Of a stretch of 64,000 bases of DNA, positions 7,929-15,586 are shown piece by piece (positions within the stretch are counted from its first letter, which is position 1; every line of letters starts with the position of its first letter). The notes below the pieces were generated by a model, which was not told the origin of the DNA, ran no database searches, and saw nothing but the letters and a program-made list of their open reading frames with translations. A program made the position numbers and the translations under genes. The stretch spans positions 1,798,001 through 1,862,000 of the forward strand of contig NZ_CP110395.1 of the NCBI RefSeq assembly GCF_029910215.1, read 5' to 3'. This DNA is from Paraburkholderia sp. D15 (lineage in GTDB: Bacteria; Pseudomonadota; Gammaproteobacteria; Burkholderiales; Burkholderiaceae).

Positions 7929-8378
7929 ATGGATCCGTACCGTGATATCAACGATGAAGAATGGCAGCGCATAGCGCCGTTGCTGCCTGAGCTGCGGCCC
8001 CGCGCCGAACTGCGCGGACGTCCGCTGGCCAATACGCGTTCGGTGCTGAACGGCGTGTTGTGGGTCATGTACAGCGGCGCCACATGGTCGGCCATGCCGC
8101 GTAAGTATCCGTCCTATCAGACCTGCCATCGCCGCTTCAAGGTGTGGTACGCGTCGGGGGTCTTGAAGCGGGTCACGGCGTTGCTGTTCGGCGCGGCGAG
8201 CGAGGAACTCTGCACACTGATGGAAGCACGCATGCGCACCCATCCAGGTCCCGAACAGAAACGTCCCGATGCGGACAAGGCCCGGGACATCGCGCCGGCC
8301 ATCTACAAACCCACGCCCGCCACCCCGCTGCCTTCTTCTCCCTTCGCATTCGGCTCGCCCTTCAAACACGCTGCATGA
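7929..8378 (+). CDS. Stand-alone IS402-like transposase N-terminal domain protein (DUF4096)
   Basis: 149 residues. The first 110 or so match the N-terminal domain of IS5/IS402-type transposases (DUF4096): RDINDEEWQRIAPLLP, RPLANTRSVLNGVLWVMYSG, TWSAMPRKYPSYQTCHRRF. The DDE catalytic domain is absent; the protein ends in a Pro/Ser-rich tail unlike transposases. It has a good AAGGAGA ribosome-binding site 6 bases before ATG and its own terminator, and no frame disruption, terminal inverted repeats or target duplication are visible. Either a transposase remnant or a domesticated DNA-binding domain. Function unknown. Confidence 0.8.
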   Translation: MDPYRDINDEEWQRIAPLLPELRPRAELRGRPLANTRSVLNGVLWVMYSGATWSAMPRKYPSYQTCHRRFKVWYASGVLKRVTALLFGAASEELCTLMEARMRTHPGPEQKRPDADKARDIAPAIYKPTPATPLPSSPFAFGSPFKHAA

Positions 8379-8481: not shown

Positions 8482-8967
8482 TTATTGCTGACGCACCCAC
8501 GTCTGCGAACGTCCCAGCAGCGACACGCCGATATAGCCGCGCACCACCAGTTTGTTGCCGCCGTCTTCCAGGTGCATCTTGCACTTGTAGACCTTGCCGT
8601 TTTCCGGGTCGAGAATCTGTCCGTGATCCCAGCCGTCGCCGTCCTTCTTCATGTCGTTGATGATCGTCATGCCGAGGATCGGCTGATCCTTGCGCGCGTC
8701 GGTGCAGGCGGTGCAGCGGCGATCCGGCTGATCGTTCGGGCCGAGCCCCTTGACCACTTTGCCGCTCAGCGAACCGCCGCTGTCCTGCGCGATCTGCACG
8801 AGCGCCTTGGGCTGGCCGGTGTGATCGTCGATGGTTTGCCACATGCCGACCGGGGTGTCGGTCTGCGCCATCGCGGTCATCGCGCTGGCGAGCAGCACGC
8901 CGGCGAGGGCGGCCTGTCTGGCGGTGCGAACCGCGACGGCGCGCGCGCGTTGAGTGAATTGAATCAT
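8482..8967 (-). CDS. DUF2147 family secreted protein
   Basis: 161-residue exported protein of the DUF2147 family; the molecular role of the family is not established. A signal peptide ends near AMTAMA-QT, predicting export to the periplasm. The mature part starts VGMWQTIDDHTGQPKALV and contains GKVVKGLG, CTACTDARKDQPILGM and a C-terminal GYIGVSLLGRSQTW, the typical DUF2147 beta-rich pattern. The start is supported by a strong AAGGAGG upstream on the minus strand (8973-8980). The gene is convergent with the DUF4096 gene. Confidence 0.85.
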   Translation of the reverse strand: MIQFTQRARAVAVRTARQAALAGVLLASAMTAMAQTDTPVGMWQTIDDHTGQPKALVQIAQDSGGSLSGKVVKGLGPNDQPDRRCTACTDARKDQPILGMTIINDMKKDGDGWDHGQILDPENGKVYKCKMHLEDGGNKLVVRGYIGVSLLGRSQTWVRQQ

Positions 8968-9285: not shown

Positions 9286-11004
9286 TCAATTCAGTTGGTA
9301 CGAGAACGTCGCGTTGATGCGTGGACTGCGCGACGCGCTTTCCACCGGCGCATCGCCGATGGCTTTCGCGACCGACAGATCCAGGCTGTAGTACTTCGCA
9401 TCCGAGATGCGGAAGCCGAACGCGATCGACGACAAGCGCGACGGCGACGGCGTGCCCGCATGCAGATAAACGCGCGCCATGTCGAACGATACGTACGGCG
9501 TGAGCGTGCGCAGATAGGTGAAGCCCGGCGTGAACGGCCGGTTGATCTCGAACATCGCACCCCAGCCCGAATCGCCCGATGCCTCGCCCGGTTGATAGCC
9601 CTGCGCGAAGCGTTGCGCGCCGAACGAGATCTGTTCGGAGGTCGGCAGCGAGACGGCGCTGTATTGACCGGTCAGCGAGACGGCGGTGCCGATCTTCATC
9701 GGCCATTCGTTGCTTTGCGAGAAGCTTGCGCCGGTGCGCACGAAGGTGATCGACGCTGGATTCGTGACGGGCTGGCCGGGCACGTTCGAGTCGCCCGCTT
9801 TCGATGCGCCGAGAATGTCGAACGCCTTCGCCACGTTGACGCTCGCGCGCCGCACCTGGCCGGTCTGCACGCTGGTGTAGTCGGCCTGCAACTGCATCAC
9901 GCGGACCTGCGAGCGCAGGCCGATCTGCGCGCCGGTGTCGGTGTTGTTGTAGCGGTCCTCGTCGTGCGATGCGTACACCGACGCGGTGCCGATCACGCTC
10001 TGCGTATTGCTCAGCAGCAGCGGATAGGCGAGCGAGCCGCCCACCTTGTCGTTGATCACCGTGCGCTGGATATAGGAGGGCAGGCCGGGGTTGTCGGTCG
10101 GATTGCCGCGATAGTGGGTGGCGTCGATCTTCGCGATCAAGCCGTTGCTGCCGATCGGCACCGCGCCGTGCGCCGCGAGATACGTGACGTTGTCGCGGCC
10201 CTTGGGCAGCAATGCCGACACGCTCAGCTGTTCGCCGAGCGCGGTGAGGCCGTTTTCGGTGGCGGTCAGCAGACCCTGCACGCCCGGGTGATTGAAATCG
10301 ATGCCGGTGCTGACGTCGAACGGTTTGCGATCGACGTTCAGTTCGAGCGTGGTCGCGCCGTCGGTGTTCTGCGGCGGCGGCACGTTCGCGGCGACCTTCA
10401 CGCCCGGCAGCAGACCGAGCACATTGATGTAGCGCTCGAAGGTGGCGCGCCGCAATGGCCGGTCGGCGACGATGTGGTCGGCGATCGCGCGGATCTTGTC
10501 CTCGACCGCGCCGGCCTTGCCGGTCACCTTCACCGCGGATACGTAGCCTTCGACGACGGTCACGCGCACCACGCCGTCGTCGAAGGTCTGCGCGGGAATG
10601 AACGCGAACGACAGCGCATAGCCGCGATCCTGATAGAGCCTGGTGACGCCGTTGGCGACCTCGATCAGATTGCCGATGGTGGTGTCCTTGCCGACCAGCG
10701 GCGTGAAGCGCGCGGCGACTTCATCGAACGGAATCGATTTCACGCCCTCGACCTGCACGCGCGTGGGCGTCAGATGACGGGCGAGCAGTTCCTGGAGTTG
10801 GGGCGCCTGCGGGGCGACCTGCACGGTCACGTTCGGGCCTTTGTCGGGCGCCTTGATCTGCGGCAGCGAATCGAGCGGATTGCCGCCGACCGCCGTGCCG
10901 CCGGGACGGGCCTGCGCCTGGGCATCCACCTGCATGACACTTGCCGCGACGGCGGCGAGTACGACGGTCCAGCCGGTCCATTTGCTGCCATACCCGAGTT
11001 TCAT
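9286..11004 (-). CDS. TpsB/ShlB/FhaC-family outer-membrane transporter
   Basis: 572-residue two-partner-secretion type outer-membrane protein. A signal peptide ends near VDAQAQA, then a POTRA-type domain spans about residues 81-160 (VQVEGVKSIPFDEVAARF, LYQDRGYALSFAFIPAQ, VVRVTVVEGYVSAVKV), followed by a beta-barrel domain ending in FSYQLN. The loop equivalent to the family motif VRG(F/Y) reads RFAQGYQPGEASGDSGW. An upstream start at 11097 is possible, but MKLGYGSK at 11004 gives a clean signal peptide. No TpsA exoprotein with an N-terminal TPS domain is adjacent; the upstream neighbours on the same strand are two repeat lipoproteins. Confidence 0.88.
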   Translation of the reverse strand: MKLGYGSKWTGWTVVLAAVAASVMQVDAQAQARPGGTAVGGNPLDSLPQIKAPDKGPNVTVQVAPQAPQLQELLARHLTPTRVQVEGVKSIPFDEVAARFTPLVGKDTTIGNLIEVANGVTRLYQDRGYALSFAFIPAQTFDDGVVRVTVVEGYVSAVKVTGKAGAVEDKIRAIADHIVADRPLRRATFERYINVLGLLPGVKVAANVPPPQNTDGATTLELNVDRKPFDVSTGIDFNHPGVQGLLTATENGLTALGEQLSVSALLPKGRDNVTYLAAHGAVPIGSNGLIAKIDATHYRGNPTDNPGLPSYIQRTVINDKVGGSLAYPLLLSNTQSVIGTASVYASHDEDRYNNTDTGAQIGLRSQVRVMQLQADYTSVQTGQVRRASVNVAKAFDILGASKAGDSNVPGQPVTNPASITFVRTGASFSQSNEWPMKIGTAVSLTGQYSAVSLPTSEQISFGAQRFAQGYQPGEASGDSGWGAMFEINRPFTPGFTYLRTLTPYVSFDMARVYLHAGTPSPSRLSSIAFGFRISDAKYYSLDLSVAKAIGDAPVESASRSPRINATFSYQLN

Positions 11005-11423
11005 CGGATTGTCCTCGTATGCCGTTTTTCTGTGCGGCCGCGCCGCCTGGCCGGACGGATCGCGATCGCTTATGTGTGGCTCGACGCATACTGCCATGCC
11101 TGCATGTATTACGTCACGCGCTCCGTGTGGCTTGAGCGAGGGTATCCGCGGACGGCGGCCGCGCGAAGCACGTGATGAACCGGATTGCTTATGCGTAGTG
11201 CTTAGCTGAAGTGCTGGACAGGGTGCTGATGCAGGCGCTTGCTCAATTGCTCTTGCAACTGCCTGCTCGACTGCCCGACTGCTTGCTCAATTGCTCGCTC
11301 GGCTGTCGGTTCCGCTGTCCGTTCGACGCGACACGCACCCGTTGCGCATGTCGCGTCTCATCCGGCAACTGTCACGCATCATTTCTAACCGCTGATCGAA
11401 CCGATGCGTTTTAGTTGGACTAC
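11005..11423. other. Intergenic region upstream of tpsB-like gene, with low-complexity repeats
   Basis: About 420 bases without a gene. Positions 11220-11310 are low-complexity, built from variants of gctcaattgctc, ctgcctgctc and ctgcccgactgc, including an exact 16-base direct repeat gcttgctcaattgctc at 11237-11252 and 11281-11296. The promoter of the leftward tpsB-like gene should lie nearer 11005-11100, but I cannot identify it. Confidence 0.5.
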
Positions 11424-12908
11424 TTATTTATGCGCGACCGGCAGCAAGCCGCCGAGCAGCGTCGTCAGTCCGCCGGCCGGGTTGCTCGAGCCGCTGGTCG
11501 AACCCGCCGCCGAGCTGAGCGTACCGGTCACTTGCCCGACCAGTCCGGTGACCGGCGCGAGCGCCTGAGCGGCGCCGCCCGCGCTGCCCGCACCGCTCGC
11601 GCTGCTCGTCACGCCGGACAACACGCCGGTGAGCGTGCCGGTCAGCGTCGTCAGCGGATTCGCGCCGCTACCCGCGCCGCCGAGTGTCGAGGTCAACGAG
11701 CTCAGCGGCGTGCCGCTCAGGCCGGAGGTCAACGAACCGAGCGGTGTGCCGCCCAGTGCCGAGGTCAGCGAGCTCAACGGCGAGCCGCCTAGGCCCGAAC
11801 TCAACGAACCGAGCGGCGTGCCGCCCAGCGCCGAAGTCAGACCGGCGAGCGGCGTACCGCCGAGCAGTGTCGACAGCGAGCCGAGCGGGTTGCTGCCGAG
11901 CCCGAGGCTTGCCAGCGTGCTTTGCAGCGGTCCGAGCGGATTGCCGTTGGCCGGCGGGCCGCCCGCGACGCTCACGTTGGTGCTGCCGACCAAACTCGTG
12001 ATCAGCCCCGGAATCGGATTCGCGCCGTTCGGGCCATTCGGATTCACGAGACCGCCGGCGTTCGTCACGGTATTGCCGAGCGACGCGACCAGGTTGCCGA
12101 CATCCGCGCCGACCGGGTTGCCGGTCGCCGATCCAACCTTCGAGCCGGCCGAGCCGAGCGCGCCGCCGACTTGCGAAAGCAGGCCGCCGACCGGCGCGCC
12201 GAGTCCGGTCTGCGTGCCGACCGTCTGCGTGACGAGGCCGGCGGTCGTGACGATCGGCGTGATCGCGGTGCTGATCGGTTGCGTGATCTGTTGCACCGGT
12301 CCCGAGTTGACGACGTTGCCGAGCGTCGCGCCGCCCGCGTTCAACGCGCCGGCGGCGGTGGAGAGCGCGCCGGCCAGCGGCGTGGTGAGCGGCGACAGCG
12401 GCGCGAGATTGCCGCTGCCCAGACCGCCGACAGCCGTGCTCAGTCCTTGCACGACGCCGCTCGTCGAGCTGACGACGTTGCCGAGGCCGCCGACCGTCGT
12501 GCCGACCGGATTCGACGTCGTGCCGATCTGGCCGAGGCCGTTGCTGACCGCGTCGGCGGTTGCGTTGAGCGTGCCGCTGGTGGCCGACACCGCGCTGCCG
12601 AGTCCTTGCGTGACCTGCGGGCTGAGACCCGGAATGGTCTGCGAGCCGATCGCGTTGCCGAGGTCGCTGGTGGTTTGCGCCGCGGTGGTGGCGAGACCGC
12701 CGGTGCCGGTCGTCGCCACGACGCCGCTGCCGCTGCCGGACCCCGAGCCGCCGCCGCTACCGGTGCTTGAGGTGGTCGGCGGCGCGCTGACGGTGCTGCC
12801 GCCACACGCCGCGAGTACGCCGGCGGCCGCTACGGCGATCAGCGGTGCGCGCAACGACGACACCGTCGCGCACGCCGCATGGAGAGTAAAAAAACGTTGG
12901 GTGGACAT
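11424..12908 (-). CDS. Gly-rich repeat lipoprotein, paralogue 1
   Basis: 494 residues. An N-terminal export signal ends in lipobox LAAC (GVLAACGGSTV), so the mature protein should be a lipoprotein. The rest is very rich in Gly, Ser, Thr, Leu and Val. A middle part (NPVGTTVGGLGNVV, GPVQQITQPISTAITPI, TQTVGTQTGLGAPVGGLL) matches paralogue 2. The C-terminal third is a tandem array of about 15-residue units such as LGGTPLGSLSSGLGG. Start ATG 12908 has GAGGAGC 6 bases upstream; longer starts add an Arg-rich non-export sequence. Such proteins are sometimes labelled collagen-like, but a strict G-X-Y periodicity is not seen. Function unknown. Confidence 0.85.
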   Translation of the reverse strand: MSTQRFFTLHAACATVSSLRAPLIAVAAAGVLAACGGSTVSAPPTTSSTGSGGGSGSGSGSGVVATTGTGGLATTAAQTTSDLGNAIGSQTIPGLSPQVTQGLGSAVSATSGTLNATADAVSNGLGQIGTTSNPVGTTVGGLGNVVSSTSGVVQGLSTAVGGLGSGNLAPLSPLTTPLAGALSTAAGALNAGGATLGNVVNSGPVQQITQPISTAITPIVTTAGLVTQTVGTQTGLGAPVGGLLSQVGGALGSAGSKVGSATGNPVGADVGNLVASLGNTVTNAGGLVNPNGPNGANPIPGLITSLVGSTNVSVAGGPPANGNPLGPLQSTLASLGLGSNPLGSLSTLLGGTPLAGLTSALGGTPLGSLSSGLGGSPLSSLTSALGGTPLGSLTSGLSGTPLSSLTSTLGGAGSGANPLTTLTGTLTGVLSGVTSSASGAGSAGGAAQALAPVTGLVGQVTGTLSSAAGSTSGSSNPAGGLTTLLGGLLPVAHK

Positions 12909-13214
12909 AGGTGCTCCTCGGTGTCTTCTAGATGTAGCGTGCGGTTGGTCAAGTGCGCCGATGCAACGGGTTGCGGTTTTTCCGGGCGGCGCGGCCCGGG
13001 TTCCGGCCGAAGTCCGGCGAGCGGGCGCGGCTGGCGGGCCGCGCGCCGTTCGTTGCTGCGTGAAGGTGCTGGGTGATTCGCTACGCAATCGCCACGTCGT
13101 CTTCGGACGTGTGCTGCGCGCGGTGTGCAGCCGGCGCGCTTCGGTTGGATCGACGGTACGCGTGACGCAGGCGTTTCCGTCGACCGGCTTGACTCAGCCG
13201 AAGCGCGCCGCTGC
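12909..13214. other. Intergenic region between the two repeat lipoprotein genes
   Basis: About 306 bases. Contains the GAGGAGC ribosome-binding site of the downstream lipoprotein gene and no other gene I can support. No clear terminator of paralogue 2 or promoter for paralogue 1 is visible, so the pair may be co-transcribed leftward. Confidence 0.4.
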
Positions 13215-14753
13215 TTACTTCTTGCCCAGTCCGCCGAGCAGGCCGCCGACCAGCGAGGTCACCGGTGCGAGCGGATTGCTGCCCGTGCCCTTGCCGGCGC
13301 TGCTCGTCAGCGACAGGCCGGTGCCCGAGCCGGAGGTGGCGCTCGTGGCGGTGGTGGTCGCCGACGTCGCCGCGGTGGTGGCCGTGGTGGCGACACCGCC
13401 GAGTGCGCCCGTGACGCCCGACAACAGACCGGTGACCGGTGCCAGCGGGCTGCTGCTGCCGCCCGTCGCGCTGGACAGGCCGCTCGTCACGCTGGTCAGC
13501 AGACCGGTGACGGGAGCGAGCGGATTGCCGCTGCCGGTGGCGCCGCCGAGCGCGCCGGTCAGGCCGGCGAGGGGACCGCTGCCGGTGCCGCCGGTCAAGC
13601 CACCGAGCAGGCCGGTGACCGGCGCGAGCGGGCCGCTGCCGGTGCCGCCGCTCAGACCGCCGAGCACGCTGGTGATCGGCGCGAGCGGATTGCCGCTGGT
13701 GCCGCCGCCGAGACCGCCAAGCACGTTGGTCAACGGCGCGAGCGGGTTGCCGCCGCTGCCGCCGGTCAGCAGACCGCCGACCGAGGTGACCGTCGCGCCG
13801 GTATCGCTGACCGTGTGGCCGAGCGCGGCGGTGACCGCGTTGCCGCCGGTCGAGGTCAGCAGGGCGCCGGCCGTGCCGAGTCCGCCGCCGACCGTCGAGA
13901 GCAGCGAGTTCAGCGGAGCGCCGAGACCCGTCGTGTTGCCGACCGTTTGCGTGGTCGCCGCGACCATCGACGTGATCGGCGTGATCGCGGTGCTGAGGGT
14001 TTGCGTGACTTGCTGGACCGGGCCGGTGGACAGGGCGTTGCCGAGCGTGGTGCCGCCTGCCGCGACGGCGCCGCCGAGCGTGCCGACCGCGCCGCCGAGC
14101 GGCGAGGTGAGGGCCGACAACGGGGCGAGCGGGCCGCTGCCGAGGCTCGTCACGAGGTTGCCGGTTTGCGTGACCGCGCCGCCGACGTTGCTCACCACGC
14201 CGCCGAGGCTCGACACCGTGGTGCCGACCGGGTTGCCGCCCGCGCCGAGCTGGCCGAGACCTTGCGACACGCCGCCGCCGAGCGTCGATACCGCCGCGCC
14301 GACCTGCTGCACGATGCCGCCGGCTGCCTGGGTGGTTTGCGGGCTGACGCCCGGCAGGGTTTGCGAGGCAATCGTGCTGCCGACGCTCGACACCGTCGAA
14401 CCGACATCGCTGACGATTCCGCCGCCGTTGTTCACCACCGTGCCCAGTGCGTTCGACACCGGCGTGGTGCCGCTCGTGCCGGACGTGCCGCTGGTGCCGG
14501 AGCTGCCCGACGTCCCGCTCGTGCCGGAGCTGCCGACGGTGGTGCCGGACGTGCCCGAGGTACCGGAGCCGCCCGAGCCCATCGAGCCGCTGCCGCTGGT
14601 GGACAGCGCGCCGCCGGCGGAGCCCGCGCCGTCGCTGCCGGTGCCCGAGCTGAGCGTGCCGGAGCCGCCGCAGGCGCCAAGAGAAAGCATGGCGGCAATC
14701 CCGGCCGCAATCAGGGTTGCCCGTACCGTGGTGGTGGTCGTTTGAATGTTCAT
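13215..14753 (-). CDS. Gly-rich repeat lipoprotein, paralogue 2
   Basis: 512 residues. Signal sequence MNIQTTTTTVRATLIAAG ends in lipobox LGAC (LSLGACGGSG). A Ser/Gly/Thr run (GTSGTSGSSGTSG-type) follows, then a middle part paralogous to the downstream lipoprotein (NPVGTTVSSLGGVV, GPVQQVTQTLSTAITPI, TQTVGNTTGLGAPLNSLL), then a C-terminal array of units of the form GNPLAPVTGLLGGLTGG-TGSGPLAPVT. The start at 14753 is chosen because it gives a compact signal peptide; an in-frame start 6 codons upstream is possible. Likely surface- or periplasm-exposed and flexible; function unknown. It lies divergent from the Tad locus. Confidence 0.85.
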   Translation of the reverse strand: MNIQTTTTTVRATLIAAGIAAMLSLGACGGSGTLSSGTGSDGAGSAGGALSTSGSGSMGSGGSGTSGTSGTTVGSSGTSGTSGSSGTSGTSGTSGTTPVSNALGTVVNNGGGIVSDVGSTVSSVGSTIASQTLPGVSPQTTQAAGGIVQQVGAAVSTLGGGVSQGLGQLGAGGNPVGTTVSSLGGVVSNVGGAVTQTGNLVTSLGSGPLAPLSALTSPLGGAVGTLGGAVAAGGTTLGNALSTGPVQQVTQTLSTAITPITSMVAATTQTVGNTTGLGAPLNSLLSTVGGGLGTAGALLTSTGGNAVTAALGHTVSDTGATVTSVGGLLTGGSGGNPLAPLTNVLGGLGGGTSGNPLAPITSVLGGLSGGTGSGPLAPVTGLLGGLTGGTGSGPLAGLTGALGGATGSGNPLAPVTGLLTSVTSGLSSATGGSSSPLAPVTGLLSGVTGALGGVATTATTAATSATTTATSATSGSGTGLSLTSSAGKGTGSNPLAPVTSLVGGLLGGLGKK

Positions 14754-15409: not shown

Positions 15410-15586
15410 ATGAAAAAGTTCACACAACGCTTCCTGAGAGATAACAAAGGCGTGACGGCCATCGAATATGGGCTGATCGCGGGGTTAATCGTTCTCGTCA
15501 TTGCCGTTGCGGTGACCAATCTTGGCACTGGCATCAATGGCGTGTTCACCCGTATCGCCGCGGCGATTCCGGCGGCGGCAGCGTAA
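15410..15586 (+). CDS. flp: Flp-type type IVb prepilin
   Basis: 58-residue major pilin subunit of the Tad pilus. The short basic leader MKKFTQRFLRDNKG is followed by the prepilin-peptidase site G-VTAIEYGLIAGL, with the conserved Glu at position 5 and Tyr at position 6 of the mature pilin, then a long hydrophobic helix (LIVLVIAVAV). The mature pilin is about 44 residues, typical of Flp. GAGGGT precedes the ATG. It is the first gene of the Tad locus and is followed 138 bases later by its peptidase gene. Only one flp copy is seen. Confidence 0.93.
   Translation: MKKFTQRFLRDNKGVTAIEYGLIAGLIVLVIAVAVTNLGTGINGVFTRIAAAIPAAAA

Follow-up and report, generated by a model that had tools for sequence, protein, structure and literature searches.

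What does a transporter of the two-partner secretion (TPS) type export when no exoprotein with a TPS domain is encoded beside it? This question is raised by a locus of Paraburkholderia sp. D15, which we analyzed within a stretch of 64,000 nucleotides (hereafter, the window; assembly GCF_029910215.1, contig NZ_CP110395.1, positions 1,798,001 to 1,862,000). A preliminary description of the window had noted an outer-membrane transporter of the ShlB/FhaC type (tpsB) with no TpsA beside it and with two Gly-rich repeat lipoprotein genes (lipA and lipB) upstream on the same strand, and had proposed that the transporter may export or display these lipoproteins, or else that its partner was lost or lies elsewhere. 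Our results support the first of these proposals, and the co-occurrence of the genes across genomes strengthens it: we infer that TpsB is probably an outer-membrane exporter dedicated to lipoproteins of the Collagen_mid / LAPVT-repeat kind.

A TpsB transporter beside two Collagen_mid lipoproteins

The transporter gene was confirmed at its described position. At an expect value (E) of 1 or lower its product matched only POTRA_2 and ShlB in Pfam, and as modeled it is a standard TpsB fold, nearest to FhaC, CdiB and other Omp85 barrels.

9286..11004, minus strand: tpsB, FhaC/CdiB-like outer-membrane transporter of 572 amino acids (aa), counterpart by position of BCAL1522 of Burkholderia cenocepacia
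10546..10770, minus strand: POTRA_2 match of tpsB, residues 79-153 (Pfam PF08479, E 7.5e-20)
9409..9984, minus strand: ShlB barrel match of tpsB, residues 341-532 (Pfam PF03865, E 1.6e-12)

The absence of a linked TpsA was also borne out. No TPS domain (PF05860) lies near the window tpsB, and the four PF05860 matches of this genome are all elsewhere: three adjoin the TpsBs at C1:74101 and C1:1456967, and a distance of about 27 kb separates the fourth (C1:2639540) from the TpsB at C1:2612137.

A GNPxDxLP-type motif was seen at window positions 10831-10911 (TpsB residues 32-58), within the low-confidence N-terminus. It is conserved among the aligned Burkholderiales members, is not found in L135, L159 or L160, and resembles, letter-wise, the NPLAPVT repeats of the partner lipoproteins.

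Both lipoprotein genes lie upstream on the same strand at the coordinates first given. Their description as Gly-rich repeat lipoproteins was correct but incomplete, as both are members of a named family, PF15984 (Collagen_mid), which they match over its cut-off. Both also carry a lipoprotein signal peptide, called by lipobox pattern. Collagen_mid is their sole Pfam match above cut-off, and PF05860 is not among their matches at E<=1.

11424..12908, minus strand: lipA, lipoprotein of 494 aa, lipobox LAACGG, Collagen_mid E 1.6e-58; BCAL1523 counterpart by position
12804..12806, minus strand: predicted lipidated Cys35 of lipA (lipobox LAAC, Gly at +2)
12042..12635, minus strand: Collagen_mid of lipA, residues 92-289 (PF15984)
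13215..14753, minus strand: lipB, lipoprotein of 512 aa, lipobox LGACGG, Collagen_mid E 8.6e-64; BCAL1524 counterpart by position
14670..14672, minus strand: predicted lipidated Cys28 of lipB (lipobox LGAC, Gly at +2)
13761..14357, minus strand: Collagen_mid of lipB, residues 133-331 (PF15984), modeled as long helices
13218..13709, minus strand: C-terminal low-complexity region of lipB with LAPVT-type repeats, residues 349-512 (from motif count and the predicted local distance difference test, pLDDT)

LipB has 6 LxPVT-like motifs and LipA has 2, where shuffled sequences gave means of 0.04 and 0.02. The AlphaFold2 model of LipB places helices within residues 102-329 (pLDDT of ten-residue blocks 72-88) and is mostly of low confidence elsewhere, with a mean pLDDT of 61 over the 512 aa and values mostly below 50 in residues 349-512. 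The longest Gly-X-Y run has 8 triplets in LipB and 3 in LipA; thus neither protein has the long triple-helix-type run that strictly defines a collagen-like protein.

Elsewhere in the same genome, two further PF15984 members exceed the cut-off (C1:217607 and C2:2036785), whereas a fifth match falls short of it. The unlinked Collagen_mid protein at C2:2036785 has 86 consecutive Gly-led triplets, many of them GTS.

The lipoproteins and the transporter occur together across genomes

Conserved co-occurrence of the genes, which the preliminary description had named as the check to make, was found in two samples. The family sample consisted of 150 genomes with a completeness of >=95%, with TpsB counted at E<=1e-60. 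PF15984 was present in 79 of these genomes and TpsB in 80, and all 79 had both. Lipoproteins in genomes lacking the transporter would have spoken against the proposal; none of the 150 genomes had PF15984 without TpsB. The sole TpsB genome without PF15984 (G670) has an in-frame TAA in tpsB, with no PF15984 or repeat frame in the 15 kb around it. As the genomes are related, the 79 co-occurrences are not 79 independent events.

In the order sample (200 genomes), all six genomes over the PF15984 cut-off have a TpsB at E<=1e-100, and the pair is adjoining or one gene apart in each, with an altered gene order in G192, where the lipoproteins lie downstream of tpsB. A genome below the cut-off (G057) had no TpsB match at 1e-20. 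Four more genomes have a TpsB at E<=1e-70 and no PF15984 match over the cut-off; in three of them (G024, G071 and G177) a Gly-rich LxPVT-repeat lipoprotein is encoded upstream of tpsB, and in G155 such a repeat lipoprotein lies about 2.4 kb from tpsB on the opposite strand, with two predicted genes between. These partner counts cover the TpsBs at E<=1e-70; of the nine weaker matches of the order sample (E 1e-29 to 1e-21), the surroundings of one, G015, were viewed and showed no such lipoprotein gene.

The class sample (370 genomes) gave 15 TpsB matches at E<=1e-40, including that of our genome. Among the 14 others, two have a Collagen_mid neighbor, both outside the order (G341, E 7.1e-44; G511, E 8.8e-16), and five a TPS-domain neighbor. 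The lipoprotein-TpsB pair is thus also found in further families and, beyond the order, in two genomes, and its neighbors differ; this pairing is not local chance. That TpsB almost always comes and goes with the lipoproteins in the genomes covered suggests that it delivers them to the surface.

Gene arrangement, linkage and decay

We then considered the named loci (80 of the 104 loci found). A PF15984 frame lies upstream of tpsB on the same strand in 77 of them, with two or more such frames in 66 of these, and the stretch between its stop and the point where the TpsB match begins has a median length of 248 bp (range 112-511). Two loci, L066 and L090, reach a contig edge. In L094, from the metagenome-assembled genome of a symbiont, the lipoprotein gene is broken and tpsB has two stops.

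Linkage was surveyed in 20 of the 80 TpsB genomes, chosen for few contigs and listed places. Every one has a PF15984 member within 10 kb of tpsB. Among the matches listed for the 20 genomes, at least 37 members were linked and at least 19 unlinked (>10 kb from tpsB). The presence of unlinked members in tpsB genomes suggests one transporter for several substrates.

Several further genes were seen beside these loci. Repeat proteins with a signal peptide adjoin the lipoprotein and tpsB genes at L140:8648-9508, L134:7302-8099 and L159:7442-8419; no lipobox was seen in them (pattern check on L140 only), and they are possibly released companions. A second Collagen_mid lipoprotein, divergent from the first, lies on the Tad side of L139 (12529-13722; genome G149). 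A small Gly-rich lipoprotein gene (L169:7513-7989) is convergent to a TpsB gene with no assigned partner.

Lipoprotein-linked transporters group in one clade

A TPS-domain protein linked to the transporter in close relatives, which would have argued against the lipoproteins as partners, did not appear in the family and order samples. No PF05860 match was found genome-wide in 9 of the 80 family genomes with TpsB, nor in 4 of 10 more distant TpsB genomes (G177, G192, G118 and G341). The other 71 family genomes and the other six distant ones have one or more matches, as does our genome; consequently, a TPS partner acting in trans is excluded only for these 13 genomes.

For 44 selected TpsBs (37 from set A3, three from our genome and four from the order sample) we also built a quick tree by maximum likelihood, rooted at the midpoint, with support from the Shimodaira-Hasegawa-like approximate likelihood ratio test (SH-aLRT) and no bootstrap, and with seven long end branches flagged. 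A branch with an SH-aLRT of 99 sets the 24 lipoprotein-linked rows and L135 apart from all others, and one change divides the lipoprotein-linked from the TPS-linked rows. In this count L085 was labeled lipoprotein-linked though only a remnant is left, and L135 was labeled 'other' although its tpsB lies 2.4 kb from a repeat lipoprotein gene. The arginine of the VRGY/F-type motif in the L6 loop is kept in 6 of the 25 clade rows, as against 9 of the 12 other class-level A3 rows.

Counterparts in Burkholderia cenocepacia

The lipoproteins have published counterparts. PF15984 is the signature of the 'Bcc-CLP' candidate adhesins, with five members in B. cenocepacia J2315: BCAL1523, BCAL1524, BCAL2397, BCAM0695 and BCAM1598 (PMC10224339). 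The window lipA and lipB carry this defining domain and occupy the position of BCAL1523 and BCAL1524, and the neighbors (flp operon, transposase, BCAL1520, BCAL1522) agree with Table 1 of that paper. In the TpsB position, BCAL1522 is listed there as a putative exported heme-utilization-related protein. The terms TpsB, FhaC and POTRA are absent from the text, which gives BCAL1522 no export role; the link to an exporter is proposed in the present analysis.

The flp cluster is described as two putative operons, BCAL1524-1520 and BCAL1525-1537, and contact with host-membrane vesicles induces BCAL1520, BCAL1523 and BCAL1524 along with flp genes (PMC7970998). Deletion of BCAL1524 reduced autoaggregation and the symptoms of wax-moth larvae, and complementation restored both (PMC10303873).

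The preliminary description had held that no system of this composition was known. Because the lipoproteins and the likely operon had already been described in B. cenocepacia, that statement narrows to the pairing of transporter and substrate; this pairing was not found described in the literature searched, a coverage that leaves out most subscription journals.

Proposed mechanism

Domain content, genetic pairing, paired decay and clade structure are what our data show; from them we infer transport, topology, the recognition element and adhesion by LipA and LipB as follows. Both proteins would be exported by Sec, lipidated, and sorted by Lol to the outer membrane. The POTRA domains would capture an extended segment, either Collagen_mid or the repeats, which would be threaded through the TpsB barrel. 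The low-complexity linker behind the lipidated Cys may then span the membrane, or else the lipid anchor may be flipped. The linkers (56 residues in LipA from the predicted lipidated Cys to the Pfam domain, 73 in LipB to the first modeled helix) would, by our estimate, suffice to cross the barrel with the anchor left in the inner leaflet. The helices would fold outside the cell, unlinked family members would probably be served by the same transporter, and the surface product would act in cell-cell adhesion.

A broader proposal, for which we judge the chances to be about even, is that these transporters form an old, separate type Vb branch, found in more than one order and Tad-adjacent only in part, in which one TpsB exports linked and unlinked lipid-anchored Collagen_mid/LAPVT-repeat lipoproteins through a helical or repeat element that replaces the TPS domain.

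Contrary evidence and alternative explanations

Several observations weigh against TpsB as the exporter of these lipoproteins. Half of the other class-level TpsBs (7 of 14) have no assigned partner, their neighbors having been viewed at the level of reading frames. The partners share no universal feature: the LxPVT motif is missing from L159 and L160, and no match to PF15984 exceeds the cut-off in f25 or f41. In L085, one of the 77 loci counted above, tpsB adjoins only a lipoprotein remnant of 157 codons. Among the 56 members listed in the linkage survey, 19 lie more than 10 kb from tpsB, and the intergenic gaps among the three window genes (306-419 bp) are long for a tight operon. The lipoproteins of L132 and L133 have Asp at Cys+2, an inner-membrane signal in E. 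coli. PSORT places BCAL1523 at the cytoplasmic membrane (PMC10224339), and BCAL1522 is unnamed in the passage on contact induction (PMC7970998). Finally, in mirror-tree partial correlations of distance matrices (61 loci, AFG1 as species proxy), TpsB correlated more highly with TadZ (0.69) and CpaB (0.66) than with LipB (0.56) or LipA (0.31); the value for the DUF2147 protein encoded downstream of tpsB was 0.38.

8482..8967, minus strand: DUF2147 protein, downstream of tpsB, accessory (PF09917, E 5e-35; BCAL1520 position)

These correlations count in favor of an alternative in which the lipoproteins are periplasmic accessory subunits of TpsB or Tad rather than cargo, and in which TpsB has another product to assemble or export, for example a Tad or DUF2147 component. 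The gene set does face the Tad locus, as first noted: a Flp pilin frame begins at 15410 on the plus strand, followed by Tad genes. A CpaB homologue is present in 68 of the 80 named loci, the Tad marker RcpC is found in all 79 family genomes with the pair, and BCAL1520, BCAL1523 and BCAL1524 are co-induced with flp genes (PMC7970998). In L053, L069 and L085 no Tad homologue was found in the fetched flanks, and their genomes do carry RcpC matches. However, the pair has other neighbors in three cases: RcpC is not linked to it in f25, and G341 and G155 lack any match to RcpC. Tad is also often present where the pair is missing, as 26 of the 150 family genomes are among the 106 with RcpC and have neither TpsB nor PF15984. 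A DUF2147 homologue was found in 73 of the 80 named loci and not in the other seven, which places this protein outside the invariant core. BCAL1524 is present in outer-membrane vesicles (PMC10303873), although such presence alone does not equal surface exposure. Taken together, we regard this alternative as unlikely.

Export by TpsB must also be weighed against co-inheritance only, that is, an old neutral gene cluster with no functional coupling. Most of the family sample probably descends from one ancestral locus, so its counts are non-independent. Yet the flanking genes differ in f25, G341 and G155, the gene order has changed in G192, and decay is paired in G670 and L094; within the family sample, unlinked members are confined to TpsB genomes and no genome was seen to have lost one gene while retaining the other intact. 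Such a neutral cluster therefore seems very improbable.

Least probable of all is that TpsB serves a TPS-domain exoprotein encoded elsewhere, with the lipoproteins as bystanders: our genome has its four TPS-domain matches, with about 27 kb between one of them and its nearest TpsB, and relaxed specificity of BcpB transporters is reported in the B. cepacia complex (PMC10449530), but 13 TpsB genomes have no TPS-domain match, unless a diverged domain was missed by the searches, and the presence of lipoprotein and TpsB is discordant in just 1 of the 150 family genomes.

Comparison with known export systems

In two-partner secretion (type Vb; FhaC/FhaB, CdiB/CdiA, BcpB/BcpA), whose recognition signal is regarded as the TPS domain (review PMC5422565), the transporter has the same ShlB-type POTRA and ShlB barrel as the window TpsB, and the partner is likewise encoded next door. 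In contrast, the window encodes as partners two lipoproteins that are about 500 aa long and lack an N-terminal TPS domain, and LipB is modeled, at low confidence outside residues 102-329, as helices and disorder, not as a long beta helix. The new element here is a type Vb transporter paired with non-TPS lipoprotein partners.

Slam is an exporter of surface lipoproteins, and a dedicated outer-membrane barrel encoded beside them would work alike; it belongs, however, to another protein family, and the window transporter has no Slam match in Pfam at E<=1. The general BAM machine assembles RcsF, which serves as a stress sensor. In the BamA-RcsF complex (PDB 6t1w) an Omp85-type barrel is also complexed with a lipoprotein, whereas the window barrel is TpsB-type and encoded together with its presumed cargo.

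If our model is correct, two-partner secretion is able to change its cargo and to transport a protein that is lipid-anchored and probably not beta-helical. The collagen-like adhesin candidates of Burkholderia, one of them tied to autoaggregation (PMC10303873), would also gain their missing exporter.

Further genes in the window and genome

Elsewhere in our genome (C1:1003358), an open frame of 155 codons contains a ShlB-like fragment. In the window, a short DUF4096 (IS4/5-type, insertion sequence) transposase gene lies at 7929-8378. A homologue is kept downstream of tpsB in 72 of the 80 named loci, and it therefore looks like a long-kept remnant, not a recent insertion.

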